A stretch of 57,232 nucleotides of DNA, from positions 1-57,232 of the forward strand of contig CAUDNR010004191.1 of the NCBI GenBank assembly GCA_958430865.1, written 5' to 3'. The notes under the pieces were generated by a model, which was given only the letters and a program-made list of their open reading frames with translations, was not told the DNA's origin and did not search any database. Below, piece after piece: positions 5,709-56,639 of this stretch. Every line of letters begins with the position of its first letter. The stretch's first letter is position 1. The translations under genes and the position numbers were made by a program. Source of the stretch: Entrophospora sp. SA101. Taxonomy: Eukaryota > Glomeromycota > Glomeromycetes > Entrophosporales > Entrophosporaceae.

Positions 5709-5719
5709 CATCCTGATGA

Positions 5720-8700
5720 TCCAATTGCCTAATAAAGTCTGTGTAGTATTTTTAATGATAATTTAGAATACCTGATTTTGTAAATTCATTTGATTAAATG
5801 TTAAAATTTGAATTTAAAATTAAACAATATGATTGGTTCAGCAAATGACTGTGTCATTTAAAATTGACATTCAAATGACCAACCTTCCGAGCATTTTTTT
5901 TTTTTTTATGGCAAGAAAACATGATTTTGCATTGGTTTTTAATGAAAAGACCAATGAATGGTTTTAAAATGTGATGATCATCTATTGATCACCAAAAAAA
6001 TCCGCATTTATATAATGTGCGATTTTTTGGTATGATAAATGATAGAACTTTAGCTTTCAAATGAGTCTAAGATCATCAACTTATCCCAAGAATTGGCAGA
6101 ATTGAAAATATTAATTTATCAATTATAAGTGTAAATTGGTTGATATTTTAAAATCAACAAACATCAAAACCTTCGTAACAACAATATGCGATTTTTTAAT
6201 ATAATGGATGATAGAATTGTAGCTTCAAAATGAACCTAAGATCGTTGAGATATTCCCAAAATTGATTTAATGAGGATTTTTTCACAACATAATAAAGTTT
6301 GCAAAATTTGAAATTTTGTTTCTAATTGAAATATTAATATTTTGTTTTTAAACTGTTATGAAGTCATTTAAAGGCTTAATTTTCTTTTTCCTCCCCTTAC
6401 CTCCCCAACCCACAGGCAACATAATGGACATTTGATTTCACACAGAAATTAAATTTTACTGGCTTAAAGATCATTGTGCAACTTGATAATTATTATTAGA
6501 AACTTACGGAACGCAGAGATTAAAGTTGTATGAGGTCAAAATATTATTTCCTACAATCATCACCATCACCATCACAACCACAACCACAACCATCATCGTA
6601 ATAATAATATTCAAATAACTTTAGTTGTGCAGTTGTAGGACAGTACATAACAATTTAAAACCCTTTTTGACATATTTTACCCAATAATAATAATAATAAT
6701 AAGTGATAATTTTGGTTGTGCAGCTATGTAAACAATTGAAAAAACGTTTTTTCGGATTTTGACATAATAATTTTGGTGTAACAATTGAAAAATGTTTTTC
6801 GGATTTTGTTTGACGCAAATCAGGCTTATCAGTCTCGTATTTTGTTTTATTTTACATAATAAAAAGTAATAATTTTTAAATTTGTTCCAATTATATATTC
6901 CTCAAAAATTAAACAATTGGAATAATCAAAATCTTATTTATTATCAGTCAGACAAGATTTCACGTTTACTGATTTTACTATATCAGTCAGACGACATTTA
7001 ATATATGATCGACATGACACGTTTTCTGTACAACGGACTTTGATGAATGAATTGAACGTAACTCATTACTAAACAATTTTCGTGCCTCTAAGTAAAAACA
7101 ATCACTTACTTTTGACCTTTAAAGTGCGAGCTTTATGCGTCTTTAGCTCTTCCAGTTATGGAGTAATAGCCTCTCAAAGAAACCTATGGTTTTTGACTCC
7201 GGAAGCTTAATTCTTTTCGGAAATTAGCTCTATTGAGATGATAAGACAGAGTACATCGAGAGCTTTTAGAAAATATATGTTTTGTATGGCTTTCTTGGGG
7301 AAGGAAGAAATTAAAAGCAAAAATCGGTTTTATAAGTTATTTATTATTATAAGAACTCTTCAAAAAAAATTTTTTGCATTAACTTTTGTTATATTAATAA
7401 TGATTTAGACAATATATGAAAACATAATATTACTCTTAATTATTATTTAATAAATAAATTAATGATTATTATAGATGATAATAATCTTTAAATTCAAAGC
7501 TTTTGTTTATTGTGAAGAATTTTTAAGATAGTATGAATTAAATAAGAAAGACACAAGACAATCTCAAAATTAAATGAAGAGATAATAAAAAAAAAAACTA
7601 TTTACTATTAGTACTAGGTATCAAAGATTATATTAAATGAATTTAATTAATATATTCAATATTAAATTTTTTTTTTTTGTCAATATTTAATTGATTATTT
7701 GTTTACATGTTAAAAATTATATAAATATGAAAATTTTGTTTTAAATGATGATTATATGGCCGAACAATGTACCACTAAAGAAAAGAAGAAAAATTTTGTA
7801 ATCTCACTGAGTTCTATGTTAATATTATCATTTATTTTTTTTTTTTTTCATGTTGTAATCTCCTAATTTTACTAGATGTTCATTAATCATGTAATTTAAA
7901 TAGATTTTTAGATAATCTTTCTATATATAATAAATTTTTATTAACAAATGTAAATTTAATTGAATTATATCATTTTGTAACTTCTGTCCTCATAATTTTT
8001 CCATATTAATATGTCATAACCGTGAAGAATATTGGGTCAGGTTACACGATCAAATCATAGTGGGCCGTTGCACGATAATTGTTTGTTACAAGTATTTAAA
8101 AAAAATATCCATCCTTGTTCCCTCGCACACTTCTGCAGAGAAAGCCTTGCTCCCATAGATTAATTGACTGAGTTGAACATTAAAACATGATTTTAAATGA
8201 AAACATACTGTGTTTCCCTATATACATGAGTTACACAAAAAAGAAAATGACTGCCCCCTAGTAAACTAATAAGTTCACCATGAAACCAACCTTTCACCAT
8301 TACCCACTAAATCAGACCCAGTAAAGGTATTAAGATTTAGCACCTGACATTCAAACGTAGATAGTTCCCTATATAAATTTGTTATTAATGTTGATATAAC
8401 AGTTAAACTGATTTGATACCTCCAAATTTAAATATGATTTTCGTAACTATTCTAAATTTAGTAATGATACTCGAGGCCAAATTCCTCAAAAACACATACA
8501 TCTACTAAAAAAAGAATAGTATATATTAATATATAGAATTCTACAAATTTTACAATAAACAATTTTGAGAAAATCTGTTGTCATATTAAAGTTACGAGAA
8601 ACCTATTCTATCAACTAAAACTAACAGAACTATTTTTTAAAAGGTGAGACAGAAAGTAGCTTCTATATTTTAAAATTTTAGAAGGTCTTTAGACCGCGCG

Positions 8701-8752
8701 CACTATATTTTTTTTGTCTGTGATCTCAAAATATTTAGTCATTCTTGTTGTC
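5720..8752. other. 3 kb without a recognisable gene
   Basis: AT-rich with scattered long A and T runs. It holds an imperfect direct repeat of about 80 bp (6025-6105 and 6190-6270, starting TGCGATTTTTT and ending AATTG), a CAC/CAA trinucleotide stretch at 6555-6595, and two related stretches near 6710-6815 sharing AACAATTGAAAAA and TTTTCGGATTTTG. A 65-codon minus-strand frame at 6621-6818 lies over these and looks accidental. The last few hundred bases should contain the CKS1 promoter, but no element stands out. Confidence 0.4.
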
Positions 8753-9687
8753 ATGCAAGTCGAAAACCCTCAGCAACCACAACAACAGCAACAACCACAA
8801 CAAAGAGATTGGTTAGTTAGCCTTAACAAATCTACTATTGCTATGCTTATTATTCTATTATTATTTATTACTACTATTGTTTTTACTGTTACTATTAAAA
8901 TATTATGATAATCAAAAACTAAATTGTTTGTAAAAAACAATCAACCAAATTTTTATTATTATGACATTATCAGGAGTCAACCTGATAAACAAATTCAACA
9001 TCAATTTACTACATATGAAGAGTTAAGAAAATACACAATTGAACAGTATGAAGATAACATCAGCTATTCTCACACATATTATGGTTTGTTCATTAATATT
9101 TACGTGTATTTATGTGTGTATGTGTATATATATGTTGCATCAATTTTATATTTATTAAAAAAAAATTTTTTTTAGATGAATATTCTGAATACAGGTATAT
9201 TTTTATTTTTATTTCCATTATTTAGATTATAATGCTAATCATAATAATAATAATATTTATTATTATTATGTAATTTTAAAAGATCATAAAATGACTTTTC
9301 ACTAATAAATATATCATGTTATAAATATAGACATGTTACTTTACCTAGACAAATTGCTCAATATATGCCACATAATAGGCTCTTGACAGATGATGAATGG
9401 CGAAGTCTTGGTATAAAACAATCAAAAGGATGGGAACATTATTTGATTCATGGTAATAATACCAATCAAATATTAATGGTAGCAATAATAGCATATCATA
9501 AAATATAATATTAATAATATGTTATCATCATATATTATTAGCACCTGAACCACATATTTTACTTTTTAAACGGGAAAAGTTTTACAAACAAAAATATTTA
9601 ACTGAACAAACAACTGAACCTGACAATCCAACTGCCACAACTACCACGTCTACGAATGTTGATGTTGTTGATAACAAGGCATTATGA
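8753..9687 (+). CDS. CKS1: Cyclin-dependent kinase regulatory subunit Cks1/Suc1 (copy 1)
   Basis: Five exons (8753..8811, 8974..9083, 9176..9194, 9331..9452, 9542..9687) with GT-AG introns give 151 residues, total length divisible by three. Cks proteins bind cyclin-dependent kinases and dock phosphorylated substrates at G1/S and mitosis. The core is clear: YSEYRHVTLP, then DDEWRSLGIKQSKGW, then HAPEPHILLFKR, including the HxPEP hinge and the phosphate-pocket residues (R of YRH, S and W of QSKGW, R of FKR). The N-terminus is longer than in animal Cks and glutamine-rich (PQQPQQQQQPQQ). The C-terminus adds a Thr-rich tail. Exon 3 is only 19 nt, yet it encodes part of the conserved DEYSEYR stretch, which confirms the model. 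Start: first ATG in frame; an upstream TTG frame is not needed. Confidence 0.93.
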
Positions 9688-10101
9688 TTGATCAATCACA
9701 TCATATATATATGTAGATATTAAATACAAATGTATAGAAAGAAATTAACATTGTTTTTTTATTTGTTTTTTTTTAGTTATTATTGTTAATCAACCTTTGA
9801 AAAGAATTTTTTTAAAGCATTGATTAAATTAATAAATAAAAAAGAGTTATTTTTGATAGATGTTTTGTTTTTATTTTAAGGAATAATATTATTCTATATT
9901 TAATTTGATGTGATAAAAAATAATATATTAGTAGTGAATAATAAATGAATTGATGAATGAATTTTCAAAAAAAAAAATTTATTATTATTGCTGACCAAAA
10001 AAAAATATACAAAGCAACATTCATACACAGATAAATATATACACATGCTCCCTCTTCACACACACACAAATACACACACACACACACATCTAGATGTTTT
10101 A
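9688..10101. other. Convergent spacer between CKS1 and MED4
   Basis: About 410 bp between two genes that end towards each other. It holds T- and A-runs and a CA dinucleotide microsatellite at about 10056-10088. No gene is seen. Both 3' ends must lie here. Confidence 0.5.
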
Positions 10102-11139
10102 TTATTCAAGATCAGGATTTAGATCCAAATTATATTGTTGTTCAATTTGATTAGTTTGTAAATATGATGATGCTGTTGTTTCGTTGACAATCATTGGGTT
10201 ATTATTACTATTATTGATGTTTTTATGAACATCCATTGAATCAAATTCTTCGACTTCAAGTTGATTCTGATGAATATCTGTTACATTCATAAAATCTTCT
10301 ATATATATATATATATATTATTTTAATTTATATTTTAATAATGAAAGCTTTTTCAAAAAAAAAGAAATAATTCCAAAATCTTTACTTTCACCATCATCAT
10401 ATTGTCTAAATAATAATCCAGCACGCATAAGAGTTTCATCAGGATATGGGGGCTGAAGTGGAATATTAGCATTTTGGTTATTAAAACTTGATGGTGCTGA
10501 TGTATATTTACTAAGTTTGGCTGCATATTTTAAGATTTCATCTGCTGTAACTGGTGCTAATAAAGTAAATTAAATATATTAATTAATTTTTCCTAATAGT
10601 AGTAGTAATGTTATTCCTGTAATAATACATACATTTATTGGCAAAATTAATTGCTTGAATTGTTGTATCAGCATTTTCTAAACTCGACTCAAATTCTTTT
10701 TTTCCTTCTTTCAAAGCATTTACCAATTCCAATATTGCACTATTCTCTAATTCAAGTTCATTTTCTACTTGCAATATTTCATTATGAACTTTCTGATGTT
10801 CTTCAACTTTTATTTTTTTAATAGTTATTTTTTGTCACTAGAAATAATAATAACAATAACAATAATATACACACACACATATACATACAATCACCACACC
10901 TTACTTTGATCAAGACTTTTTTGCATCTTTTTATCTAATTCAACAATATTTTTCATTAATTTTACCGGCGTATGTTCAGTCTGCGATTTTCCTTCAGCAG
11001 TTGACGACGCAATAGATGCAAAAAATTGTTTTATGGTGGCTTCATATTCTATTAAAATTTCTTTTAAATTATCTACCATTGATTTTTCTTTATTGGTTGA
11101 AATTGTAAATGGAGATTTAGAGGACATTATTTTTATCAT
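10102..11139 (-). CDS. MED4: Mediator complex subunit 4 (copy 1)
   Basis: Model complement(10102..10298, 10386..10556, 10633..10806, 10905..11139) gives 258 residues with all phases consistent. MED4 is part of the Mediator middle module, which bridges activators and RNA polymerase II in the nucleus. The N-terminal half is helical, with the stretch NIVELDKKMQKSLDQ, then HQKVHNEILQVENELELE and a coiled coil up to about residue 136. Then comes the family hallmark PVTADEILKYAAKLSKYTSA, followed by PLQPPYPDETLMRAGLL. The tail is Asn/Gln-rich and ends LNPDLE. The first intron is the least certain: donor GTAAGG with acceptor AAAAG gives DQ-I-EEHQ, while a donor three bases further with another acceptor would give DQSK-KVHN. 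A second ATG at 11127 is an equally good start. Named from conserved motifs. Confidence 0.85.
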
Positions 11140-13825
11140 CTATTGTCGTTAATTTTTTTTCAAGATATTATATATTGTGCAACATAATACAAATTACACG
11201 TTCGAATGATAATATATTTTCGAATTGGGTTCTTTTAACAAGAGTCCGGATCACACAGACCCTATTTTTATTCCCAATATTAAAGGCGAGCCAAGGCTGG
11301 TCCTAATTGTACGCCAAACAAGTAATAAATATTAAATATAGAATTTTAAACTTGGTCTTTTGTCAAAAAAAAAAAAATTCTTCGCCAAAGATAATTAATT
11401 ATAATTCCAAACATAATTTAAAAATCAATTAATTACACAATGAAAGAGTATTCGATAGAAATTATGATCCAATAATTTTTTTGGAAAAAGGGCTCTATTG
11501 GTTTGTTGCTTTACCTTTGAACCTTCATTTAATAGAAAGATTTTTAAAACTAAATCACAAGTTCTTGAGTTTTATACTTTTTAGGATATCATTCAAATAT
11601 TTGAAAAATCTTATCCATGTGAATTATCATCATTCTATTGGGGGAACAAATAATTTCTTCTTTCATTATAATTAATCAACAAACTTAACTCCGCTTTAAA
11701 ACTAATAATTTAGAAAATAAATGTTTTGATTTTTCCTTATTATCACCATTTATTGAGTATGCGCTAGTTGCTTCCTCAAGAAAATATTTAGTGTATTAAA
11801 TTAACCATTTAGGTCTCTTGTCTTGAAGAAATATTATTTCTTAGAACATCATTTGGCATTGACAGTGTATGTGCCTGTTTTTATGGAACAACGAATATAC
11901 AATAGTTCGATGTCAACCAGATATTAAGTAAAGAGAAGAAGCATGGCAGAAGAAGACATCTCTGGTAAAGGTAGTAGTATATAGTACCTATCTTTACGGA
12001 ACATTCAACCTAATAACTAAAATAAATGAACCCAACCAATTTATTTGAAAAATTCGGATCTCAAAGCGGACATTTATTAATATGACGAAAATTGACGGGT
12101 TTTAAAAAATGAAGAATCGATAATAGCCAAATTAAAGGTCGCTAATATTCGCAGAAATCAATTGCAATAAATAATGATGGGGTTTTGTAAACGGTATTGC
12201 TACTATACAAAAATGCATATTCAAATAACATTAAATAAACAAAAATTCCTCTTTTTCGGTAATTAGAAATTTAAGGCCACGGCCCTGTATTTACAAACCT
12301 TTTTTGTATAATAATTTTCATATTTTTATTATTATATTATGTGTGAATTTTTTCTTTTTCTTAAACCAAACAAGCGTGTAATATAATAATAATAAATATG
12401 GATAACATCTCAAAATCTCAGGCGATAATTAGAGGAAAAACAACGGAAGAAAATCTCAACGAATAATCACAACCGTCATCAAAAGCATGCAATGTTTCTT
12501 GTGATATTTTTAATTATTTAATGTTGGAAAGAATGATCACGGGAAACATATTTCAAAGTAATAATTTATAATATACAGTATACATAATATGCTGATTGAT
12601 TAATATTGGAGTATTAGTTTAATACTCTTCATATGTTAAGTTATCAGATAAGACATTACTGATATTTGTGATGGAAACCAATCAAAAAAGGCATTTTTTT
12701 ATTCATATATACAATATTCTAATTAACAATAATTCATTTATTCCATTGCAAATAGAATGAGTTGTAAATGATATTTGATGAAACGATAAAATACACTTGT
12801 TCCTCGCTCATTCACTCAAAATAAATTGAAAAACTTTTGAAGAATTAAGATGAATTGTTTTTTGAGAAACTTGACATGGGAATATTTTCTGACCAATTAA
12901 TTAGTAATAGTAATGAATGGGTTGATTATTGGTTAAAAACAAATAGTTATTCTTTCATTTTTGTATCCAAGTTGGAATTTTTGATTTATCGTTTGTTACA
13001 TACAGCTCACTCTCTATAACGAACTTTACTTTTGTCCCGATCATTTTTTTTATAATTAATTTTTCCCTCTATTAATATCGGGCGTACAACTATTATCATT
13101 TTACCATTTTTATCATTATCCTAAATATCCTAAAAACTCTCTAATCAGGAAATTACAATAAGATTTGAATTGATGTTCGTACGACACATATATACTTGTT
13201 TTTTTTGTTTGTTTATTGTTAAACCGTAGCACATTTTTTGTGTAAACGTGATAAACTGAAAGCAAAAAAAAAATCACTTTTTTTTCAAAGAAACAACTTG
13301 TAGAATACAGTAGTAGTGACCTTACCAAAACCTATCTCATTATTATTATTCCACATAACTAGCAGTTTAAGTTGGAATATTTTTTTATTATAAACTTTTT
13401 CCTCGCATTTCTTATTCATACAATTTAGTCTTCGTTTGAATAGATAATTTTCTTTTCATGATAGCAATCTCTATTATTACTATTGCAACAAATATTCGCT
13501 TAAATCAGCCTCTCCATGTTCTTAGTGCTCATTACGTTTTCTTCATTTGCTTTAACATATTCATAAGGTCATTATTAACGTTAACGTTAATATAAAATGA
13601 TTGTTTGCGCAATTATTTTCCGCAATAATCACCATGTAATTTCTTTATCAGGATAGTGACATAACCTTAAAAACCATTTGTTCAATTGTGTAAAAATCGC
13701 ATGTTACAAACAAATATTCTATTATTAGGTCGCAAATACGGTTTCAAGGATAAATAATCTGATTTTTCTCAATCCTTTTATTTTTATCATAAAATTATTG
13801 TTATAACCTGTTTTTTTTTTTCAAA
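11140..13825. other. 2.7 kb without a recognisable gene
   Basis: This separates the divergent MED4 and S1/P1 nuclease genes and so contains both promoters. ORFs of 64-70 codons at 11481-11675 (no ATG start) and 13116-13328 show no family features and are taken as accidental. Positions 13241-13411 are the source of the 171-bp fragment found inserted in copy 2 (35908-36078). Confidence 0.4.
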
Positions 13826-15306
13826 ATGAAAAATTCATCGATTTTTTTGATTTTTCTATTTATTATTATCACCAATTTTACCACCATTCAAATGGTAAAT
13901 GCTTGGGGTGAAGATGGTCACAAGATTGTTGGTAAAATTGCTCAAAATATTTTGAACCCGGAAATAGCTAAAAGAGTTGCCAGCTTGTTTCAAGATCCGT
14001 TTTTTGATGGAAAATTACCTCTCGCTGCCCTTTGGGCTGATATGATTAAACAAATACCAGAATCTCCATACGCCAATTGGAGTTTTCCTTTACATTATAT
14101 GACTACGCATGATAATCCCGGCAGAGTTTGTTCTGTCGATGAGGTAATTAAAAAAAAACCAAAAATTTTTTTTGCGCGTTTATTTGTTTGTGCTTTGTAT
14201 TTTTATTATTTGTTGTTATTTTTTCCCCTCAATAATCAATTCGTTATAACAATTTTTTAGGCGAACGATTGTGCTGGAGGTGCTTGTATAGTTGGTGGTA
14301 GGTTTTCCCCTTTCCTCTAAAAATTATATTTTGTTTTATTTTTTTCCTTAATTATTATTAAACGGTTTATAATATAATATTATTACACGATTAGCAATTG
14401 CCAATTATACAGATCAATTGGATTGTGAAAATGGCCGTGACATCAATACCAGAGATATTGCTCTTAGATTTTTATCACATTTCTTTGGTGATATTACACA
14501 ACGTAATAATTTTATTTTTATTTTTAATGTCTTTAATAATTAATTAATTAGTTAATTAATTAATTGTGTTTTTTAGCACTTCATGTTTGCGGACGTGCTA
14601 GAGGTGGAAATGATATTAAAGTGACATTTGATGGTCGTCCTACAAAGTAAAAAGTTAAACTACACTATATTAATATCCATTATCATCACATTCTAATTTA
14701 ATTAATTTTATATTTTTTAAAAAAGTCTTCACGCAATCTGGGATAGAGATATTGTAAAAAAAAAAAAATCTTTAATAATTTTTTTGATTCTTTAGGAAAG
14801 AAACGCATTAATTGACTTATTGATTGATTGAAAATTTTAGGTTAAAAAAAGATTAAAAGACTACAACGATAATTTTGAAACATACGCAAATCACTTAACT
14901 AATGAAATTACTAACGGAGCTTTCGCAAAAGTGTCACAAAATTGGATTTCATGTAAAGAGACACAACTAAAAGGTCTTAGTCTTAATTTAAGAAAACGTG
15001 CTAAAGCTACTACAAAATGTCCACTTACTTGGGCAATTGATACCAATGGAATTAATTGTCCTTTGGTAAGTTTATATCTCTATTTATCTGTTTATTTACA
15101 CATATATTACACGCGTAAAGACAAACTTGTAAATTTTTTTAATTAATTAGGTTTGGGCAGCTATTGATGATAATCCAAAAGTAGATTTAGGTGGAAGATA
15201 TTATCAAGATGCAGTGCAAGTTATTGATCAACAACTTGCTAAAGGTGGCCTTAGACTTGGAACATTCTTAAATATTATATTAAACAAACCTTGTGAAAAT
15301 AATTAA
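13826..15306 (+). CDS. Secreted S1/P1-type zinc nuclease (copy 1)
   Basis: Seven exons (13826..14143, 14261..14297, 14395..14502, 14577..14646, 14726..14753, 14841..15065, 15151..15306) give 313 residues. S1/P1 nucleases cleave single-stranded DNA and RNA and nucleotide 3'-phosphates with three zinc ions. Residues 1-26 are a signal peptide, and cleavage would expose Trp27 as the new N-terminus, as the fold requires for its first zinc ligand. All nine zinc ligands are visible: W27 and H32 (WGEDGH), D72 (ALWAD), H90 (PLHYM), H147, D151 and H157 (HFFGDITQPLH), H180 and D184 (NLHAIWD). Cysteines in VCSVDE, NDC and GACIV fit the family's disulfides. Exons of 28 and 37 nt are confirmed by motif continuity; the 28-nt exon 5 uses an AAAAG acceptor. 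It ends CENN before TAA. A role in nucleotide scavenging or host interaction would be inference. Confidence 0.93.
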
Positions 15307-15396
15307 ATTGTAAAGTATTAAAAAAAATTATTTTATTTATAAAAAAATAACAACACAGTAAAAAAATATGTACAAAGATTATTATTTATATTATTA

Positions 15397-17598
15397 TTAA
15401 TCAACAAAAAAAGACATCCATAAATCAATTTTTTTTGTTATATATACAAACGTCTCTTGAGAATTGCTTAATAGCGGTATGATCGTTTGATCGATAAAAT
15501 CTTTAAAATCTTCCAGCATAGGAGGAATTTTATCGAAAACTTGATCTAAAATATTATTAAAATAATAATAATAGTATTGATTTTTACTAATAGAAACGCC
15601 ACCACCTTTATAGCTATAAATATTAATATTATTTTTCTCTTCCGCAACCATTTTCTTATCATCGTCGCCATTAACTCCATCAATAACATCCAAGTAAATA
15701 ATTTCATCTTTTGTCAATAACAAATTGAAACCTTTCAGAATATTTCCTTTTCTATCTACAATATCTGCTGATACTCGTATTTGTTTCGGTTGTTTTTCAT
15801 CATTGCGATCATTAAAATCATCGTAATCAATACGGAATAAAAATAAATTTTCATCAGCCATGGCAACTTGTTTCCTTGCTTGCTGATCATTGTAATTATA
15901 GAGAATAACTTGAAATTCATTGTTTTTAATCTTTTTTGTTAATGGTGATTCATTAAGATTAAACAAAAAATCAGTTTCGGATATTTGCCAAAGATCAATA
16001 TATTGAGTTGATCCTTTATACTTTAAAAATTTTATGTCAAGATTAACATAACCTAAATTATTCCCGACGTCGCTATCACTGTTACTATTACTGTTATTGC
16101 TATTGTTAAAGGTTTCTTCAAGTTTAATTCTTAACATATTATTATTATTATTATTAATATCATTACTGATATTACTAGGATTGTAATCACTATGGCTATT
16201 TTTATTAATTAAAAGTAAGTCATATTTAGTCAAGCTTGTCGTAAGATCCAAGAAGAAAAGAATAATTATTACTATGATCGAAATGACTTCTCGTGTCTTC
16301 TTCGCCCATTTATAACCATCTCTACACTCACTATTTTCATCATTATTTTCACTAACATCGTCGTCATAATCATCGTCATCGTCGTCATAATCATCGTCAT
16401 CGTCGTCGTAATAATTATCGCCATCATCGTCATCATCGTCGTCGTCATCGTCGTCATCATCGTCATCATCACTGTGATCATTATTTGTTATTACGTTCCT
16501 AAATTCGTGATTCATTTTGAATTTGAATGCATGATTTTTCAATATTAGAACATCATTGTAAACAAGGTTAGGATCAAAAAATGAAAATTCGTTGGCTGTT
16601 ATTATTTGATTTCTTTTGCTAGCTTGCCAATTAAAACAATTGATTTGATAGTTTTCTAAAATTCGGAAAAGTTGTATTGCTGATCTTTTGTTGTAATTAT
16701 TATTATCGCTTGGCTCTTGATCACAAAGACCAATGATTACTGGAAATAAATTTATATGATTTTGTAGTTCTTTCATTGTTTCGACAAGTAAATTTGAAAG
16801 TCGTGGTGAGTTTGGTGATATTAAGATCACGCACAAGTCAATCCAATTTTGGACGTTGTCGTTGTTTTTTTGATGATTATTGTTATTGATGTTTTTTTTA
16901 ACATTATTGTCGTTGTTTTTAATATCTCCGCCGTCATCATCGCCGTCACCATATTTGTTGGAAGTAGTAATGTCAACTTTTAAATAATTCTTTAACAAGC
17001 AATCTTTAGCATCATTCAACGATTTATCAGTAAGATCTATTTCATAAATTGTTGATCCACTATCATCAATTAAAACATATTCATAAATAAAATGACTATA
17101 ATTTGCTCCATATTTAGTAGATTTCAATTTAAAGCTTTTTCTTTCACTGAAAGCAGTTTGGTTAGGTCTATAATTATGACCGTGATCAGAAATACTTTTA
17201 CATATTTTATTCAAGATTTCAAATTTACAGGATATTGTCATCGTTGATTTTTCACCATCACAATCATCATCATCACCGTTAATATAAGCGACGCGGAAAT
17301 AAATTGGCAATGAAAGCGGTTTTGATGTTGAAGTTTGTTTTTGGTAATATATGTTATTCGTCATCTCAATATCGCTGTTAGCATCATCACCTCTTGTAAA
17401 ACTTTTAAAAATTTCTTCTAAAAAATAAAAGGATTAAATAATAATAATAACAATAGTAATAATAATAAGAAAGACCATGTGAAATTTATAATTATAAAAA
17501 TATATGTATATGTATCATTTTTTTCTCTTACCAGGTGAGATATTATGATTTTCAAAAGAAGTGTAAGAGTTGCTTAAAATTTTGTTTTCGAGAATCAT
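15397..17598 (-). CDS. Membrane protein with septin-like region, function unknown (copy 1)
   Basis: Model complement(15397..17417, 17532..17598): a 67-nt first exon starting at the ATG at 17598, a GT-AG intron, then one long exon, 695 residues. Residues about 60-340 recall a septin GTPase domain in decayed form. A glycine-to-KST stretch (GDDDDCDGEKST, about 70-81) sits where the P-loop would be. WIDLCVILISPNSPR at about 214 followed by NHINLFPVIIG resembles the septin G4 neighbourhood, and DVLILKNHAF at about 311 resembles the segment after it. Canonical Walker A and DxxG motifs are not intact. A long aspartate/tyrosine run (about 340-385) precedes one hydrophobic segment (about 400-413, VISIIVIIILFF). 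The C-terminal 280 residues are Asn-rich at first, then unrecognised. The septin link is a suggestion from residue patterns; the gene itself is well supported by its length and by an uninterrupted frame in copies 1 and 3. Confidence 0.75.
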
Positions 17599-18516: not shown

Positions 18517-19441
18517 TTACTTAAAAAGTTGTTTTATCTGTGCATTTGTTAAATGTTCATGGCCGTCTTCATACCAAGATTCTAAAATTGTTAATTAATT
18601 ACAATTAGATTGGGATTTCGATTAATTATAATTATATATGAAATTGATATATTGATACATTACCAACTGAACCAACAATTTGTGGTGCTTTAACGGCAAC
18701 AACATCATCAACTTTTTTCATAAACCTTTTCTGATTTATTAAAAATAAAATCAATAAATCAATAAATCAATAAATCAATAAATCAATAATAACAAATTAA
18801 AAATGAACAACAAACAAAAAAGCAAAAAGTAAAGTACCTGAGCATCAGAACCAATCACACCACCAGATAAAATAATCTTACCATTATAACCTAGACTTTT
18901 TAAAATTGAAATGGTGTTACGAGCATCTTGACCAGTTTTAATACCATCAGTTACTAAAATGATATTTGCATTTTCAGATTTTGGTAAAGGTAAATTTGGT
19001 GGATTGCATTCTTGATGTAAAATTTGAAGTTGAGCACGCTATATATATATTTTTAAGAAACTATCAACAAAGTTGATAATAACCAACAAGTAATCAACCA
19101 TACTATTAATTAATTATGATGTTTACCTGCTCTGCAATTTTGGAATCTATTAATTCTTGTGAAATATCACAACCTCTAAAAAAATTATTTTATTGTATTT
19201 AGTTTGTTTTATTTTATTAATTGTTTGTTTATTAATTAATTAATTTAATTAATTACTGAATAATTTGATCCTTTAATAGAGGCTTGTCTGTTCTGTCAGT
19301 TATAGCTCCAATTGTCATTCCATCCATTATCAAAGAACGAATTAAAAATAAATCTAATGGTACATTTAATTCTTTTGCTATTTCGTGAGCTATAATTGTT
19401 GCTGAAGGTTTAATAGCGAGAACAACTAAAAAATATATATA

Positions 19442-19477
<36 letters not shown>

Positions 19478-24842: not shown

Positions 24843-24844
24843 TA

Positions 24845-25810: not shown

Positions 25811-25812
25811 TA

Positions 25813-44329: not shown

Positions 44330-47015
44330 CTATTGTCGTTAATTTTTTTTCAAGATATTATATATTGTGCAACATAATACAAATTACACGTTCGAATGAT
44401 AATATATTTTCGAATTGGGTTCTTTTAACAAGAGTCCGGATCACACAGACCCTATTTTTATTCCCAATATTAAAGGCGAGCCAAGGCTGGTCCTAATTGT
44501 ACGCCAAACAAGTAATAAATATTAAATATAGAATTTTAAACTTGGTCTTTTGTCAAAAAAAAAAAAATTCTTCGCCAAAGATAATTAATTATAATTCCAA
44601 ACATAATTTAAAAATCAATTAATTACACAATGAAAGAGTATTCGATAGAAATTATGATCCAATAATTTTTTTGGAAAAAGGGCTCTATTGGTTTGTTGCT
44701 TTACCTTTGAACCTTCATTTAATAGAAAGATTTTTAAAACTAAATCACAAGTTCTTGAGTTTTATACTTTTTAGGATATCATTCAAATATTTGAAAAATC
44801 TTATCCATGTGAATTATCATCATTCTATTGGGGGAACAAATAATTTCTTCTTTCATTATAATTAATCAACAAACTTAACTCCGCTTTAAAACTAATAATT
44901 TAGAAAATAAATGTTTTGATTTTTCCTTATTATCACCATTTATTGAGTATGCGCTAGTTGCTTCCTCAAGAAAATATTTAGTGTATTAAATTAACCATTT
45001 AGGTCTCTTGTCTTGAAGAAATATTATTTCTTAGAACATCATTTGGCATTGACAGTGTATGTGCCTGTTTTTATGGAACAACGAATATACAATAGTTCGA
45101 TGTCAACCAGATATTAAGTAAAGAGAAGAAGCATGGCAGAAGAAGACATCTCTGGTAAAGGTAGTAGTATATAGTACCTATCTTTACGGAACATTCAACC
45201 TAATAACTAAAATAAATGAACCCAACCAATTTATTTGAAAAATTCGGATCTCAAAGCGGACATTTATTAATATGACGAAAATTGACGGGTTTTAAAAAAT
45301 GAAGAATCGATAATAGCCAAATTAAAGGTCGCTAATATTCGCAGAAATCAATTGCAATAAATAATGATGGGGTTTTGTAAACGGTATTGCTACTATACAA
45401 AAATGCATATTCAAATAACATTAAATAAACAAAAATTCCTCTTTTTCGGTAATTAGAAATTTAAGGCCACGGCCCTGTATTTACAAACCTTTTTTGTATA
45501 ATAATTTTCATATTTTTATTATTATATTATGTGTGAATTTTTTCTTTTTCTTAAACCAAACAAGCGTGTAATATAATAATAATAAATATGGATAACATCT
45601 CAAAATCTCAGGCGATAATTAGAGGAAAAACAACGGAAGAAAATCTCAACGAATAATCACAACCGTCATCAAAAGCATGCAATGTTTCTTGTGATATTTT
45701 TAATTATTTAATGTTGGAAAGAATGATCACGGGAAACATATTTCAAAGTAATAATTTATAATATACAGTATACATAATATGCTGATTGATTAATATTGGA
45801 GTATTAGTTTAATACTCTTCATATGTTAAGTTATCAGATAAGACATTACTGATATTTGTGATGGAAACCAATCAAAAAAGGCATTTTTTTATTCATATAT
45901 ACAATATTCTAATTAACAATAATTCATTTATTCCATTGCAAATAGAATGAGTTGTAAATGATATTTGATGAAACGATAAAATACACTTGTTCCTCGCTCA
46001 TTCACTCAAAATAAATTGAAAAACTTTTGAAGAATTAAGATGAATTGTTTTTTGAGAAACTTGACATGGGAATATTTTCTGACCAATTAATTAGTAATAG
46101 TAATGAATGGGTTGATTATTGGTTAAAAACAAATAGTTATTCTTTCATTTTTGTATCCAAGTTGGAATTTTTGATTTATCGTTTGTTACATACAGCTCAC
46201 TCTCTATAACGAACTTTACTTTTGTCCCGATCATTTTTTTTATAATTAATTTTTCCCTCTATTAATATCGGGCGTACAACTATTATCATTTTACCATTTT
46301 TATCATTATCCTAAATATCCTAAAAACTCTCTAATCAGGAAATTACAATAAGATTTGAATTGATGTTCGTACGACACATATATACTTGTTTTTTTTGTTT
46401 GTTTATTGTTAAACCGTAGCACATTTTTTGTGTAAACGTGATAAACTGAAAGCAAAAAAAAAATCACTTTTTTTTCAAAGAAACAACTTGTAGAATACAG
46501 TAGTAGTGACCTTACCAAAACCTATCTCATTATTATTATTCCACATAACTAGCAGTTTAAGTTGGAATATTTTTTTATTATAAACTTTTTCCTCGCATTT
46601 CTTATTCATACAATTTAGTCTTCGTTTGAATAGATAATTTTCTTTTCATGATAGCAATCTCTATTATTACTATTGCAACAAATATTCGCTTAAATCAGCC
46701 TCTCCATGTTCTTAGTGCTCATTACGTTTTCTTCATTTGCTTTAACATATTCATAAGGTCATTATTAACGTTAACGTTAATATAAAATGATTGTTTGCGC
46801 AATTATTTTCCGCAATAATCACCATGTAATTTCTTTATCAGGATAGTGACATAACCTTAAAAACCATTTGTTCAATTGTGTAAAAATCGCATGTTACAAA
46901 CAAATATTCTATTATTAGGTCGCAAATACGGTTTCAAGGATAAATAATCTGATTTTTCTCAATCCTTTTATTTTTATCATAAAATTATTGTTATAACCTG
47001 TTTTTTTTTTTCAAA
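44330..47015. other. Gene-free stretch, copy of 11140-13825
   Basis: Divergent promoter region of MED4 and the nuclease. 46431-46601 is an equally good source for the fragment inserted in copy 2, since it does not differ from 13241-13411. Confidence 0.4.
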
Positions 47016-48496
47016 ATGAAAAATTCATCGATTTTTTTGATTTTTCTATTTATTATTATCACCAATTTTACCACCATTCAAATGGTAAATGCTTGGGGTG
47101 AAGATGGTCACAAGATTGTTGGTAAAATTGCTCAAAATATTTTGAACCCGGAAATAGCTAAAAGAGTTGCCAGCTTGTTTCAAGATCCGTTTTTTGATGG
47201 AAAATTACCTCTCGCTGCCCTTTGGGCTGATATGATTAAACAAATACCAGAATCTCCATACGCCAATTGGAGTTTTCCTTTACATTATATGACTACGCAT
47301 GATAATCCCGGCAGAGTTTGTTCTGTCGATGAGGTAATTAAAAAAAAACCAAAAATTTTTTTTGCGCGTTTATTTGTTTGTGCTTTGTATTTTTATTATT
47401 TGTTGTTATTTTTTCCCCTCAATAATCAATTCGTTATAACAATTTTTTAGGCGAACGATTGTGCTGGAGGTGCTTGTATAGTTGGTGGTAGGTTTTCCCC
47501 TTTCCTCTAAAAATTATATTTTGTTTTATTTTTTTCCTTAATTATTATTAAACGGTTTATAATATAATATTATTACACGATTAGCAATTGCCAATTATAC
47601 AGATCAATTGGATTGTGAAAATGGCCGTGACATCAATACCAGAGATATTGCTCTTAGATTTTTATCACATTTCTTTGGTGATATTACACAACGTAATAAT
47701 TTTATTTTTATTTTTAATGTCTTTAATAATTAATTAATTAGTTAATTAATTAATTGTGTTTTTTAGCACTTCATGTTTGCGGACGTGCTAGAGGTGGAAA
47801 TGATATTAAAGTGACATTTGATGGTCGTCCTACAAAGTAAAAAGTTAAACTACACTATATTAATATCCATTATCATCACATTCTAATTTAATTAATTTTA
47901 TATTTTTTAAAAAAGTCTTCACGCAATCTGGGATAGAGATATTGTAAAAAAAAAAAAATCTTTAATAATTTTTTTGATTCTTTAGGAAAGAAACGCATTA
48001 ATTGACTTATTGATTGATTGAAAATTTTAGGTTAAAAAAAGATTAAAAGACTACAACGATAATTTTGAAACATACGCAAATCACTTAACTAATGAAATTA
48101 CTAACGGAGCTTTCGCAAAAGTGTCACAAAATTGGATTTCATGTAAAGAGACACAACTAAAAGGTCTTAGTCTTAATTTAAGAAAACGTGCTAAAGCTAC
48201 TACAAAATGTCCACTTACTTGGGCAATTGATACCAATGGAATTAATTGTCCTTTGGTAAGTTTATATCTCTATTTATCTGTTTATTTACACATATATTAC
48301 ACGCGTAAAGACAAACTTGTAAATTTTTTTAATTAATTAGGTTTGGGCAGCTATTGATGATAATCCAAAAGTAGATTTAGGTGGAAGATATTATCAAGAT
48401 GCAGTGCAAGTTATTGATCAACAACTTGCTAAAGGTGGCCTTAGACTTGGAACATTCTTAAATATTATATTAAACAAACCTTGTGAAAATAATTAA
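47016..48496 (+). CDS. Secreted S1/P1-type zinc nuclease (copy 3)
   Basis: Exons 47016..47333, 47451..47487, 47585..47692, 47767..47836, 47916..47943, 48031..48255 and 48341..48496 encode the same 313-residue secreted zinc nuclease as 13826-15306, with signal peptide and all nine zinc ligands retained. Introns are unchanged too. Confidence 0.93.
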
Positions 48497-48586
48497 ATTG
48501 TAAAGTATTAAAAAAAATTATTTTATTTATAAAAAAATAACAACACAGTAAAAAAATATGTACAAAGATTATTATTTATATTATTA

Positions 48587-50788
48587 TTAATCAACAAAAA
48601 AAGACATCCATAAATCAATTTTTTTTGTTATATATACAAACGTCTCTTGAGAATTGCTTAATAGCGGTATGATCGTTTGATCGATAAAATCTTTAAAATC
48701 TTCCAGCATAGGAGGAATTTTATCGAAAACTTGATCTAAAATATTATTAAAATAATAATAATAGTATTGATTTTTACTAATAGAAACGCCACCACCTTTA
48801 TAGCTATAAATATTAATATTATTTTTCTCTTCCGCAACCATTTTCTTATCATCGTCGCCATTAACTCCATCAATAACATCCAAGTAAATAATTTCATCTT
48901 TTGTCAATAACAAATTGAAACCTTTCAGAATATTTCCTTTTCTATCTACAATATCTGCTGATACTCGTATTTGTTTCGGTTGTTTTTCATCATTGCGATC
49001 ATTAAAATCATCGTAATCAATACGGAATAAAAATAAATTTTCATCAGCCATGGCAACTTGTTTCCTTGCTTGCTGATCATTGTAATTATAGAGAATAACT
49101 TGAAATTCATTGTTTTTAATCTTTTTTGTTAATGGTGATTCATTAAGATTAAACAAAAAATCAGTTTCGGATATTTGCCAAAGATCAATATATTGAGTTG
49201 ATCCTTTATACTTTAAAAATTTTATGTCAAGATTAACATAACCTAAATTATTCCCGACGTCGCTATCACTGTTACTATTACTGTTATTGCTATTGTTAAA
49301 GGTTTCTTCAAGTTTAATTCTTAACATATTATTATTATTATTATTAATATCATTACTGATATTACTAGGATTGTAATCACTATGGCTATTTTTATTAATT
49401 AAAAGTAAGTCATATTTAGTCAAGCTTGTCGTAAGATCCAAGAAGAAAAGAATAATTATTACTATGATCGAAATGACTTCTCGTGTCTTCTTCGCCCATT
49501 TATAACCATCTCTACACTCACTATTTTCATCATTATTTTCACTAACATCGTCGTCATAATCATCGTCATCGTCGTCATAATCATCGTCATCGTCGTCGTA
49601 ATAATTATCGCCATCATCGTCATCATCGTCGTCGTCATCGTCGTCATCATCGTCATCATCACTGTGATCATTATTTGTTATTACGTTCCTAAATTCGTGA
49701 TTCATTTTGAATTTGAATGCATGATTTTTCAATATTAGAACATCATTGTAAACAAGGTTAGGATCAAAAAATGAAAATTCGTTGGCTGTTATTATTTGAT
49801 TTCTTTTGCTAGCTTGCCAATTAAAACAATTGATTTGATAGTTTTCTAAAATTCGGAAAAGTTGTATTGCTGATCTTTTGTTGTAATTATTATTATCGCT
49901 TGGCTCTTGATCACAAAGACCAATGATTACTGGAAATAAATTTATATGATTTTGTAGTTCTTTCATTGTTTCGACAAGTAAATTTGAAAGTCGTGGTGAG
50001 TTTGGTGATATTAAGATCACGCACAAGTCAATCCAATTTTGGACGTTGTCGTTGTTTTTTTGATGATTATTGTTATTGATGTTTTTTTTAACATTATTGT
50101 CGTTGTTTTTAATATCTCCGCCGTCATCATCGCCGTCACCATATTTGTTGGAAGTAGTAATGTCAACTTTTAAATAATTCTTTAACAAGCAATCTTTAGC
50201 ATCATTCAACGATTTATCAGTAAGATCTATTTCATAAATTGTTGATCCACTATCATCAATTAAAACATATTCATAAATAAAATGACTATAATTTGCTCCA
50301 TATTTAGTAGATTTCAATTTAAAGCTTTTTCTTTCACTGAAAGCAGTTTGGTTAGGTCTATAATTATGACCGTGATCAGAAATACTTTTACATATTTTAT
50401 TCAAGATTTCAAATTTACAGGATATTGTCATCGTTGATTTTTCACCATCACAATCATCATCATCACCGTTAATATAAGCGACGCGGAAATAAATTGGCAA
50501 TGAAAGCGGTTTTGATGTTGAAGTTTGTTTTTGGTAATATATGTTATTCGTCATCTCAATATCGCTGTTAGCATCATCACCTCTTGTAAAACTTTTAAAA
50601 ATTTCTTCTAAAAAATAAAAGGATTAAATAATAATAATAACAATAGTAATAATAATAAGAAAGACCATGTGAAATTTATAATTATAAAAATATATGTATA
50701 TGTATCATTTTTTTCTCTTACCAGGTGAGATATTATGATTTTCAAAAGAAGTGTAAGAGTTGCTTAAAATTTTGTTTTCGAGAATCAT
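48587..50788 (-). CDS. Membrane protein with septin-like region (copy 3)
   Basis: Model complement(48587..50607, 50722..50788), the intact 695-residue form as in copy 1. The Asp-run microsatellite (49562-49670) has the same length as in copy 1. Such runs normally drift fast, so equal length argues for a very recent duplication or an assembly duplicate. Confidence 0.75.
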
Positions 50789-51706
50789 TTTATTTTGTAA
50801 AAGATGTTATTATCAATGGAAACTATATTTTTTTAATAAGGTATATTTTTCGAAAAAAAATTTTTTTTAAGAGAAGAAAAAGAAAAAATTAGATATTCGT
50901 CAGATAACAAAAACGTCACTCTAATTGAAACGTCACTTATTTGACATCACTTTTAGTTAAATTACACAAATCAAAATTGTAATATCAATCTAAAAGGTAA
51001 AAAAGTGTGGGCAAAAAAAATATTCAGTCAAAATGTCGTTTTAATTGAATCTTCTACTAGTACTAGAAATACATGTGTCAATCAAAAGCTTTTTTTTACT
51101 ATCTTTTCTTTTTTAAATAGAAATTCACATTAATAAATTCGACATTTGAACCTGTTGTTGTGTTATTATTATTATTTCATCTTAAATTTTATAGAAAATT
51201 ATATGAATGATGCGATCTTCTACTTTTCGGATTCATTAAATTAAAATTATTTCAAATAAAATTTTATTTTATTTTTTGAATAACAATAATAATAATAATC
51301 ACTGATGCATTTTCGAAACCCAAATTTGGCATTGACTATGTCGATCTGACACTAATCAGTAGTAGTAGGTGTAACGAAATTAAGATTAAATTGATCAATA
51401 CAATTTTATGTTATAGACAACCTAACACCTGAAAATGGGACAAGAATTAGAAGGCTTTTTTTATCTTGTCATAAAAAATCGTCAATATTTGGCTAAACAG
51501 CAATAAAAGTAGAAAAGGAAATATGCAAAGGTCGATATAGTTGGTTGTATCACGATTCAATAAATAACTTGTTCTCCAAGTAAATCATATAAATTGATAT
51601 AATGAAAACATGATTTTATTTGATTATTTTTGCCTCCTTATGAATGAATTAGTTTGTTTTAAAAAAAAATTATTAATTAGAAAAAAAAAACGGGATTTAA
51701 TTTTTA
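50789..51706. other. 0.9 kb intergenic, copy of 17599-18516
   Basis: No gene seen; homopolymer runs as in copy 1. Confidence 0.4.
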
Positions 51707-52631
51707 TTACTTAAAAAGTTGTTTTATCTGTGCATTTGTTAAATGTTCATGGCCGTCTTCATACCAAGATTCTAAAATTGTTAATTAATTACAATTAGAT
51801 TGGGATTTCGATTAATTATAATTATATATGAAATTGATATATTGATACATTACCAACTGAACCAACAATTTGTGGTGCTTTAACGGCAACAACATCATCA
51901 ACTTTTTTCATAAACCTTTTCTGATTTATTAAAAATAAAATCAATAAATCAATAAATCAATAAATCAATAAATCAATAATAACAAATTAAAAATGAACAA
52001 CAAACAAAAAAGCAAAAAGTAAAGTACCTGAGCATCAGAACCAATCACACCACCAGATAAAATAATCTTACCATTATAACCTAGACTTTTTAAAATTGAA
52101 ATGGTGTTACGAGCATCTTGACCAGTTTTAATACCATCAGTTACTAAAATGATATTTGCATTTTCAGATTTTGGTAAAGGTAAATTTGGTGGATTGCATT
52201 CTTGATGTAAAATTTGAAGTTGAGCACGCTATATATATATTTTTAAGAAACTATCAACAAAGTTGATAATAACCAACAAGTAATCAACCATACTATTAAT
52301 TAATTATGATGTTTACCTGCTCTGCAATTTTGGAATCTATTAATTCTTGTGAAATATCACAACCTCTAAAAAAATTATTTTATTGTATTTAGTTTGTTTT
52401 ATTTTATTAATTGTTTGTTTATTAATTAATTAATTTAATTAATTACTGAATAATTTGATCCTTTAATAGAGGCTTGTCTGTTCTGTCAGTTATAGCTCCA
52501 ATTGTCATTCCATCCATTATCAAAGAACGAATTAAAAATAAATCTAATGGTACATTTAATTCTTTTGCTATTTCGTGAGCTATAATTGTTGCTGAAGGTT
52601 TAATAGCGAGAACAACTAAAAAATATATATA

Positions 52632-52667
<36 letters not shown>

Positions 52668-52869
52668 GAGAATATGTGAATATAATATATATAATAATTA
52701 ATTTACTTGTATCTGGTGCATTATGGTAATGTTTCAAAAATCTAGCCAACAATTTTCCAACTTCTTTTCTTGATTCGAATCTATGTTGATAGACAGGATT
52801 ATGAGTAATATTATTATTTGATGAATTTATTGTAAGTGGTGGTAATGGTAAATTTTGTTCTGAAAGCAT
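51707..52869 (-). CDS. Phosphoribosyltransferase-like protein, COG1926 type (copy 3)
   Basis: Model complement(51707..51771, 51854..51920, 52028..52228, 52317..52365, 52447..52615, 52707..52869), 237 residues, the same as the copies at 18517-19679 and 32475-33637. The TA microsatellite in the first intron has the same appearance as in copy 1. Confidence 0.8.
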
Positions 52870-55422
52870 TTTTTATTTGTTTAATACAATTATAATTTAT
52901 TAATTGGCAAAAATGAAGTTTGGGAATTTTTTTAAAAAAGTTAAAATACAAAAAAAAAAATCAAGTTGTTTAAATACAGAAAAAAGATTAATTAACCTTA
53001 TTTCGTAATAATTATGACGATGATGATATAAATTTTACCCACGAATGTTCACCCAAAATAGAAATGAGATTAGATTATGCAGGGTGATTTTTGATAAGAT
53101 TGAAGGATTACATAATAAAACAATTAAATAATAAACTATTATTATAATCACAAGAATTGCTTGTCAAATAATACTATTTTCTTTTTTTCATTACAATTCT
53201 TTCCATAAGGTTATTATAATTTAGGCGAAATCGGTGTGTTAAATATGAACGAACAATGGTTATTATCATCCTCAATTACCAAAATAATTGACTAGCCAGC
53301 AAGTTATAAAATGCTATATAGTTTTTCCAAATAGTAAGTGCTCATGTCGCAATCCAAAAAAGGAAACAAAGTGGCAAAGGTGTGTTGCAATCATTTTTAT
53401 ATGATGCAAAGGTGGCTGCAACTATCATCAAAAAGCTGCAGCTGGTATCATCTTTATTTTCAATCTATTGTTAATAGGATTTGGAGAGATTTCCTACCCT
53501 CAATTTTTTCCTTGTTATATTTATATATTATTGCCGATTTTACTATTTATGGAATGACTAGAAAATATCACATGACCAATCAATTTTTTTAATGGAAAAA
53601 TTTTCTCAAAATTGGCGAAGTGGCATAGAAAGTTATGGGACTAGGTGACTTGCGCTGTGCGTACCCGATTCATATGTAAGGAGGGCTTCTGCTGGGAAAT
53701 GTGATCGGGATTAAGCAATGTTAGCCTAAATTGCCTCCCTTACATTAATATTAATAAATGATTGTTGCCGAATCCGAAATGCCGAAATAGTTTTTCATAG
53801 CTGATTATGATGGTTTGCCGAAAATTATATCTGAAATTTTTTGAACACTTTAACTCAATAGCCGAGGTTTTTTTATATCTATTGCAGTCCAGTATTTTAC
53901 CAAATTTGGAATTTCTAAATATTGTAATCTAATTTTCCGTGTGACACTGGAAAATATGATTTGCTAACTTTTATGCGTTGAAAAATATGAAAAACCTGGC
54001 GAGGGCCTTATAACTTCCAAAATTATACAATATGTGGATTTAACTTATATACAAGGTCGCACAGGATTAAGCAACTTCGAGGATTTTATTTTTCAATCAA
54101 TATTGTTATGATGTATAATATATCAATAGTTCAACTTATAATAATTTTTCCCAAACTATTTTTATTAATACCATAAATCTCGAAAGATAACACCCTCGAA
54201 AGATAGTAAAGATAGTACCCTCTACTTTAAAACAATTGAAAATCATTTGTTACACAGTTGTAAAAAGGAGGTGCTATCTTACAATAACTGAAATGGGCAA
54301 AATTATTTTTAAATTATTTGTTTATTCTTATAAAAAATATTGATAAGCCCAAACTATTGTGAAAGCTACTTTTTTGCAAAAATAGTCTGGACCAGAAATT
54401 TTAGTTAAACTAATAATAATAATATTTTATAATAAAATGTGAAATCAGATGAATCTAAATATCTAAATTCATTTTTTTGGAATATATAAATATGATAGTT
54501 TACAATAAAAATAGTTAATGTTGATGTTGAGTTTTAAAATTATAATTAACACACATAAGAGACGACACGAAACTCGTAACACTGTTTCTTTCCTTATTTG
54601 GAATTTATGCGCATGACTTTGGTTTTTAAATAAATGCCTATAGCGATCATCACAGAATAACTAAACAAGAAATAAACTGGTCTAATTTATCAAATTAAAA
54701 TGATATATCAATTAGCAATATAGCGGGCTTTATCTGTGATTTGTAATAAAGCAGTGGTACAAGAATGAAGACATTGTATAGAGAGTAGTCAAGTTGTAGG
54801 AGGGAACTAAACATACGAACGAGCAGTACGGACTAATATTGAGACAAGAAAAAATCAAATTTTATTAAACAGAATTTTTTGAGAAGCGTGAGATAAAAAA
54901 ACAAGGTGTTTAATTTTTTTTTTTCCACTAAGTTATCTGAAATGATCGACGTTGTTGTGTTTTTTAATTTTTACTTTTTTATTATCATCGTTTATTCAAT
55001 AGATAGATGGTGACAAAAATGAGGATTCAAAAAAAAGAAAAGTTGTACATTTCGATTAATTTTTTTATAACGTGATGATAAAATTCTTCAAAACCAATTT
55101 CAACTTTATTAATCTCTTCTAAATAATGAATTATAAACAACATTATGTAAAAAAAAAAGTACAGTGCAAGTCACTTAGTCCCACAACTTTCTGTGCCACA
55201 CCGCCAATTTTTGAGAAATCAAAAATGCAAAAATTTTACAGTCACATGATTGTCGAAGATCGTCAAGTGTTAAATATATAAATTTTTCTTTTACATTTAT
55301 TCCTATATACATATGTAAATGATTAGAACAATAAACAACAATAATGATTATAGTGATGTTATTAAATATAAGTTAAAATAAAAGATAAATTTATATAAAC
55401 AATTGAATGATTGATAAAACCT
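52870..55422. other. Transposon debris, copy of 19680-22232
   Basis: Same solo terminal repeats (53530-53668 and 55162-55280), hairpin-capable stretch and solitary hAT-like end as in copy 1. No intact gene. Confidence 0.45.
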
Positions 55423-56215
55423 TCATTAGTATATTTTGTTCATAGGTCTTGTCCTTAAAGCTTACTTCGATTACTCCTACACAAACTATTATAATTGATA
55501 ACGTTTGTTAGAATATTTTGCAAACTTCATAGATCTTGTCCTTAAAACTTGTGCAAACTATTGAATAATTGATAAAACGTTCGTTAGAATATCTTGCAAG
55601 CTTCATAGATCTTGCTTGTCTTTAAAACTTACTTTGATTATTCCTACATAAACTATTGAAATAAAACGTTCGTTAGAATATTTTGCAAACTTCATAGATC
55701 TTGTCCTTAACATTTGTACAACTATTGAATAATTGATAAAACGTCTGTTAGAATATTTTGTAACCTTCATAGATCTTGTCCTTAACACTTGCACAAACTA
55801 TTGAATAATTGATAAAAGGTTCGTTAGAATATTTTGAAAGCTTCATAAATCTTGTCCTTAAAGCTTACTTATACAAACTATTGAATATTCAATAAAACGT
55901 ACGTTAGAATATTTCTGTTCATAGATCTTGTCCTTAAAACTTACCTTGATTACTCTTACATAAACTATTGAATAATTTAATAAAACGTTCGTTAGAATAT
56001 TTTGTTCATAGATATTGTCCTTAAAACTTGTACAAACTATTGAATAATTGATAAAACGTTCGTTAGAATATTTTGTAAGCTTCATAGATCTTGTCCTTAA
56101 CGCTTGTATAAACTATTGAATAATTGATAAAACGTTCGTTAGAATATTTTGAAAGCTTCATACATCTTGTCATTAACGCTTACTTCGATCACTCCTATAC
56201 AAACTGGATCTTATC
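55423..56215 (-). repeat. Tandem array of intron-like units (copy 3)
   Basis: Same array as 22233-23025 at offset 33190, with the same unit order. The unchanged order in a tandem array indicates no unequal exchange since duplication. Confidence 0.85.
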
Positions 56216-56370
56216 CTCAACAAACGATAATATTATTGATTGATGGATCTTCGTATATTACAAACGTAACCAATCAAATCAATTAGCAAAATTTATCCTT
56301 TTTTAATTTCTTAAATGTTTCCTTTTAACTAAATAAAATAAATAATAAAAATTAAAAATAGAAGGGTCAA

Positions 56371-56520
56371 TACACCCAACGTGAGTTCCGCCTTCCGCCA
56401 CGCGGGACTTTACAGCCGATCCAAAGTGAGGCATTACACCTAAGGGAGCCGGACACAGAAGACCTTATCTGGTACTTCATCATTGCATGACTTTTCCCTG
56501 GTCGATGCTATTATACCAAT
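56371..56520. repeat. GC-rich short element (copy 3)
   Basis: Copy of 23181-23330. No difference seen. Confidence 0.45.
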
Positions 56521-56639
56521 TCTATGACTTATATATTAACTTTTTTTCAAGTTGTGCAAAATATGGGATACCAACCATTTCATTGGATTAAATTTATTCC
56601 ATAATTTTTATTGTGTAATTTAAAAAAAATAAAATTCAA

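Follow-up and report, generated by a model that had tools for sequence, protein, structure and literature searches.

The window analysed here, the whole contig CAUDNR010004191.1 (C1685; 57,232 bp, 26.5% G+C by base counts) of the Entrophospora sp. SA101 draft genome (101,348,593 bases in 2123 contigs), contains one 17.7-kb block three times, as a direct copy, an inverted partial copy and again a direct copy. The presence of this threefold block in the deposited sequence is confirmed. As judged from the assembled sequence, it is very probably an assembly artefact, because the second copy follows a zig-zag order, pieces of other genomic loci precede the third copy, 120 bp at the entry into the third copy are shared exactly with another locus, and the same pattern recurs in other contigs. 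The living genome most likely carries a single copy of the block. An earlier reading of the letters alone, referred to below as the original prediction, had offered either a misassembly in which one locus was reused or a recent rearrangement raising gene dosage. The junction anatomy, the foreign-locus pieces in front of copy 3 and the recurrence of the pattern in other contigs back the former option.

Extent and Layout of the Threefold Block

Copy 1 (5749-23429) and copy 3 (38939-56619) match over 17,681 bp with zero mismatches or indels, at an offset of exactly 33190, and the tandem arrays and microsatellites within the block are likewise the same in both. Given this length and identity, chance is ruled out as the source of the block copies. 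The offset of 33190 over 17.7 kb without any difference had been noted in the original prediction and was reproduced, as was the identity; the start proposed there, 5709, lies approximately 40 bp too far to the left of the true one at 5749. Directly left of the block (5702-5748 versus 38888-38938) the two sequences are only about 90% alike. A genome-wide search with positions 6000-9000 yielded, among the matches listed, only the two window copies at 100%. The features of the window are as follows.

1-5748, no strand: U1, left flank of copy 1, mostly dispersed repeat with protein-kinase open reading frames (ORFs)
5749-23429, plus strand: block copy 1, 17,681 bp, with CKS, MED4, S1/P1-type nuclease and septin-like ORF (exact offset and Pfam)
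5749-5868, plus strand: opening 120 bp of the block, exactly common to C1417; the route joining copy 3 to another locus
22290-22995, plus strand: minisatellite of 76/315-bp units, within which the start of the inverted copy falls
23430-29241, plus strand: U2, right flank of copy 1, with a dispersed repeat at 23452-24323
29242-35908, minus strand: copy 2, piece 1, reverse complement of 22911-16246 with one 1-bp homopolymer difference
35908-36078, plus strand: copy 2, piece 2, direct copy of 13241-13411, 1 bp overlap at the switch
36073-36368, minus strand: copy 2, piece 3, reverse complement of 16285-15990, 6 bp overlap at the switch
36369-36378, no strand: 10-N gap immediately behind the zig-zag tail
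36379-37510, minus strand: U3a, 100% copy of another locus, present twice on C196 and with 931 bp also on C1269
37494-38938, plus strand: U3b, piece of the C1417 locus, continuing for 120 bp into copy 3
38939-56619, plus strand: block copy 3, without a difference from copy 1
56620-57232, plus strand: U4, contig end, same dispersed repeat family as 23452-24323

The Second Copy Is a Zig-Zag Tail

Followed through copy 2, the sequence advances as far as 29241, resumes at 22911 and runs in reverse down to 16246, then follows 13241-13411 (171 bp) in the forward direction and finally turns back from 16285 to 15990, where it meets the 10-N gap. All three switches are inverted, and the joined segments lie 6330, 3005 and 2874 bp apart, that is, all within less than 10 kb. 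The overlaps at the last two switches amount to 1 and 6 bp, respectively. Piece 1 differs at a single place, a T homopolymer (21282-21288) with 7 or 8 residues. Copy 2 had been described in the original prediction as an inverted copy of 6.9 kb; an inverted partial copy is indeed present, but it is composite, since 35908-36078 runs in the direct orientation.

In our comparison, the anatomy of copy 2 resembles that of the chimeras formed during multiple displacement amplification (MDA), and MDA, whose use we infer, is a fairly probable cause of copy 2. Such chimeras were described for the phi29 polymerase by Lasken and Stockwell in 2007 (PMC1855051). During a strand-displacing whole-genome amplification, probably MDA with phi29, a 3′-end would have detached and primed anew on the other strand, no more than a few kb away, several times in succession. 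Copy 2 would then represent the chimeric tail of one contig, behind which the scaffolder would have set the 10-N gap.

The Third Copy Is Entered from Other Loci

Between the N gap and copy 3 the window contains pieces of sequence also present at other loci. U3a (36379-37510) matches at 100% a locus that is present twice on C196 and partly, over 931 bp, on C1269, and U3b tracks C1417 from 37532 with one single-nucleotide polymorphism and one 4-bp indel. The C1417 match crosses the block boundary at 38939 and ends at 39058, after which C1417 diverges; thus, the opening 120 bp of the block (38939-39058 in copy 3) are exactly common to two loci. Exactly shared sequence followed by divergence is the pattern of a repeat-induced misjoin. 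A dispersed repeat whose copies share 71-89% identity extends to the left block boundary, beyond which the comparison concerns C1417 only, and diverged copies of 38114-38938 are found elsewhere too. The C196 locus occurs in four arrangements, namely in the first and in the second copy on C196, on C1269 and in the window. These four cannot all hold for one genome copy.

At the right edge, both block copies exit into a repeat family with dozens of members among the matches listed. The identity of U4 is 91-93% with seven further members of this family and 86% with U2, a gap that is due to indels; counted over the same 444 bp, mismatches number 24 against U2 and 21-30 against the five family members aligned at full length. 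Copy 3 is most probably the same block, assembled a second time and reached from another locus by way of a repeat common to both, and redundant contigs with a repeat-induced join most likely account for it.

The Same Anatomy Is Found in Other Scaffolds

Comparison with other contigs, by which alone these tails were revealed, uncovered a similar construction on C1470 and C1269. On C1470, 8806 bp common to C1272 at 100% (rounded) are followed by local pieces of 326 and 189 bp and then by a 10-N gap; the joins show exact overlaps of 3 and 9 bp, and the second piece lies on the other strand. On C1269, at least 3097 bp common to C196 at 100% are followed by 696 bp of local sequence in inverted orientation, joined with an overlap of 8 bp, and likewise by a 10-N gap. 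Moreover, the second copy on C196 continues into an inverted local piece and then into a direct piece that reaches the contig end. Three of the four joins outside the window (the second one of C1470 and those of C1269 and C196) are thus inverted; in all four, the joined segments lie approximately 0.9-8.3 kb apart. With the window included, five joins have exact overlaps of 1, 6, 3, 9 and 8 bp, a sixth has none and contains 35 unmatched bp, and the switch 29241/22911 falls in the minisatellite. Three of the six distinct 10-N gaps adjoin such a tail (in the window, C1470 and C1269).

Redundancy across the Assembly

To judge how common duplication is, we drew two random samples of 19 stretches (6 all N) and 20 stretches (5 all N), with 11 of the 39 all N, which may represent gaps or withheld letters; C1339 was omitted and replaced by another stretch. 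Each readable stretch was represented by one 80-mer or 70-mer picked for complexity and GC, which skews the sample to complex sequence. At a threshold of at least 99%, which counts C1147 with its 95% copy as single, 8 of 28 readable loci had a copy in the same contig (C1511, C1371, C71, C128, C1198, C596, C117 and C1592), inverted in four of them (C1511, C71, C128 and C117). A copy somewhere in the genome was found for 16 of the 28, some of which (e.g. C750, C512 and C614) may be transposable elements, and 12 were without one. These counts are lower bounds, with 40 candidates scored each time out of 138 and 340. On C128 (L058), a unit of approximately 890 bp at 5562-8112 forms three near-identical tandem copies.

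Chaperonin-domain genes are normally single-copy in fungi. In the assembly, 75 matches, compared by profile score and not as DNA, fell into eight groups of our own making: C1455 twice; C399/C1438/C1942; C1902/C1572; C483 with an inverted part, together with C1409; C1626 alone; C514 and C636 twice; C1569/C2110; and C1162/C1222/C653, the last possibly a Fab1-type kinase. Seven of the eight groups occupy more than one locus and five have equal profile scores, as expected of a redundant assembly. The scores of C1902/C1572 are close and not equal, C483/C1409 are unequal parts, and the C636 copies differ in one exon. Doubling within one contig was observed for C1455 (offset 30,382) and C636 (offset 4164). 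The gene on C483 (16273-20429) has an inverted partial copy approximately 1 kb off, possibly a chimera-like piece or a pseudogene.

Further duplicates were seen in direct comparisons. C1792, C1470 and C1272 are identical over the 4491 bp compared, and C1337 is identical to itself over 6000 of 6000 bp at an offset of 33,154. Internal copies reach 99.975% over 4000 bp on C1295, 99.89% over 3715 of 5000 bp on C2021 and 99.7% over 5862 and 3497 bp on C1827. C1827, C1337, C1295, C2021 and C196 were chosen as already seen twice in searches and do not form a random sample. The 42.9-kb contig C1827 (L025, L026) holds two copies at an offset of approximately 21.85 kb, which may be explained by haplotypes, by a true tandem duplication or by a redundant join. 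Absence of a match weighs little in these searches: one of them (38 of 1337 candidates scored) missed copy 1 and copy 3 of the window itself, and C1792 was not listed in another despite the exact identity shown elsewhere.

Gene Content of the Block and Its Flanks

Within the block, Pfam profiles identified a CKS exon at 9317-9475 (PF01111), minus-strand MED4 exons at 10321-10834 (PF10018) and an S1/P1-type nuclease at approximately 13793-15303 (PF02265). These three genes of the original prediction were recovered, though only in copies 1 and 3; the phosphoribosyltransferase listed with them was not confirmed. PF00156 gave 5 genome matches and none in this contig, other phosphoribosyltransferase families not being searched by name, and the 20 ORFs scanned out of the 50 listed contained no phosphoribosyltransferase match. 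As CKS, MED4 and the nuclease lie outside copy 2, they would therefore be doubled, not tripled, even if all copies were real. Nothing in our analysis supports a raised CKS1 or MED4 dosage. Profile searches of the genome listed only the two block copies for MED4 and, for CKS, the two block copies and C1909. This further CKS match lies at C1909:17290-17439, in a region 84% alike in DNA to the CKS region of the block.

Copy 2 covers part of a septin-like ORF (15400-17433, minus strand), which encodes 678 amino acids in copies 1 and 3 and is broken to 401 in copy 2. The ORF matches septin only weakly and contains an extended Asp-rich run; its sole relative among the matches listed (7987 candidates scored) is from the glomeromycete Entrophospora candida, with 72% identity over 40% of the query.

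As regards the flanks, a genome search with U1 gave 142 matches, with 33 of the 1975 candidates being scored, and a kinase Pfam match falls on 1063-1956. Protein-kinase ORFs extend over 1063-3111 within a many-copy dispersed repeat; among 120 of 1575 relatives listed, the top-scoring ones are unnamed entries, and Rhizophagus and Glomus appear at 44-46% identity. Judged by the relatives of the septin-like and kinase ORFs, the sequence is Glomeromycotina-like. A search with U2 listed no other match beyond 23452-24323 (40 of 1246 candidates scored). A minisatellite of 107-bp units occupies 56907-57208, and no tRNA was predicted by ARAGORN under the bacterial code.

Alternative Explanations

A duplication peculiar to this locus was rejected, as the same pattern was observed in other contigs and in two random samples. 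An origin of the block copies from haplotypes was likewise rejected, as copies 1 and 3 are without difference.

The other option of the original prediction was a real, very recent inverted-duplication rearrangement, formed by fork template switching or repeat exchange and comprising three copies within 51 kb. Repeats at the block edges, the direct-inverted-direct order and short overlaps at the switches could all originate in vivo. However, such a rearrangement alone leaves unexplained the pieces of C196/C1269 and of C1417 that separate copy 2 from copy 3, the N-gap tail that is seen in two further scaffolds, and the same-contig copies of at least 99% at 8 of 28 random loci; it would also have to accommodate zero differences over 17.7 kb, microsatellites included. 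In a true inverted triplication, be it a duplication-inverted triplication-duplication (DUP-TRP/INV-DUP) or an origin-dependent inverted-repeat amplification (ODIRA), the copies are joined without pieces of unrelated loci; here, 36369-38938 contains the N gap and the C196 and C1417 pieces. The examined junctions fall at a chimera-like switch, in a shared repeat or at an N gap, and exact duplicates are frequent across the assembly, so that this option found no support of its own, and we consider it very unlikely. Still less likely is a fungus with pervasive, very young local direct and inverted duplications by nuclear template switching, in which more than a quarter of the loci would be exactly doubled within tens of kb. 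Least likely of all are two nuclear genotypes (a dikaryon) or haplotypes placed end to end in one scaffold. The slight differences in other same-contig duplicates (C1827, 99.7%; C2021, 99.89%; C1295, 99.975%) are in line with haplotypes, but copies 1 and 3 are identical over 17,681 bp, and the inverted zig-zag and the foreign-locus pieces would be left unexplained. An assembler or scaffolder error without amplification, through a reused repeat edge or through missed hairpin adapters that yield palindromic reads, is possible, if clearly the lesser share of an artefactual origin. Exact copies are expected from a reused graph edge, and the exact overlap of 120 bp where copy 3 starts points the same way; alternating-strand chains of short pieces with short overlaps are better fit by template switching, and a missed adapter would be expected to leave one clean fold-back.

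Several observations weigh against an amplification and assembly artefact. The first switch of copy 2 (29241/22911) falls in the 76/315-bp minisatellite, so its overlap is not measurable, and at 35908 the overlap of 1 bp falls short of the 2-21 nt given for the complementary class in PMC1855051. The first C1470 join is in the direct orientation, 35 bp at the C196 join match neither side, and 97 bp between the C196 and C1417 pieces fit neither exactly. The other three of the six 10-N gaps (L004, L014 and L058) showed no tail by self-comparison, an approach that also misses the C1470 and C1269 tails (L036 and L037). Repeat-bounded duplications arise in vivo as well, and the mismatch counts of U4 are similar, so the right edge does not tell a wrong join from the same locus. 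Finally, an MDA-based assembly of an arbuscular mycorrhizal (AM) fungus reached 99.7% mean BUSCO-gene similarity to a reference (PMC10512289), and the word 'chimer' is absent from PMC6987183 and PMC10512289, both of which deal with MDA-based AM-fungal assemblies.

Taken as an artefact of assembly, the threefold block serves as a warning: claims on copy number, gene families and rearrangements that rest on this draft would be inflated. Joins of this kind may be flagged by inverted tails adjoining 10-N gaps.

Comparison with Known Systems

ODIRA, an inverted amplification by fork template switching (PMC10766183), likewise places an inverted copy beside direct copies; it differs from the window, where foreign-locus pieces and an N gap stand between the copies and the pattern is assembly-wide. 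AM-fungal assemblies from MDA-amplified single nuclei comprise 68-130 Mb at 27-28% GC and were scaffolded with nanopore reads (PMC6987183). They resemble the present case as AM-fungal assemblies with duplicated single-copy genes, which were in excess under one workflow; chimeras are not named there as the cause. Inverted duplications in scaffolds of amplified DNA were judged to be whole-genome-amplification artefacts in the Pacasus study (PMC6218980). The likeness lies in the inverted duplications within scaffolds; the Pacasus cases derive, in contrast, from PacBio data of Arabidopsis and the gorilla Y chromosome.

Among MDA chimeras, 406 of 475 were inverted, 337 of these 406 spanned less than 10 kb, and overlaps reached up to 21 nt (PMC1855051). 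Those chimeras were seen in reads and the present joins in an assembly of presumably amplified DNA; moreover, one C1470 join is direct here and one overlap is just 1 bp. The likeness lies in joins that are mostly inverted, bridge less than 10 kb and carry short complementary overlaps at the switch.

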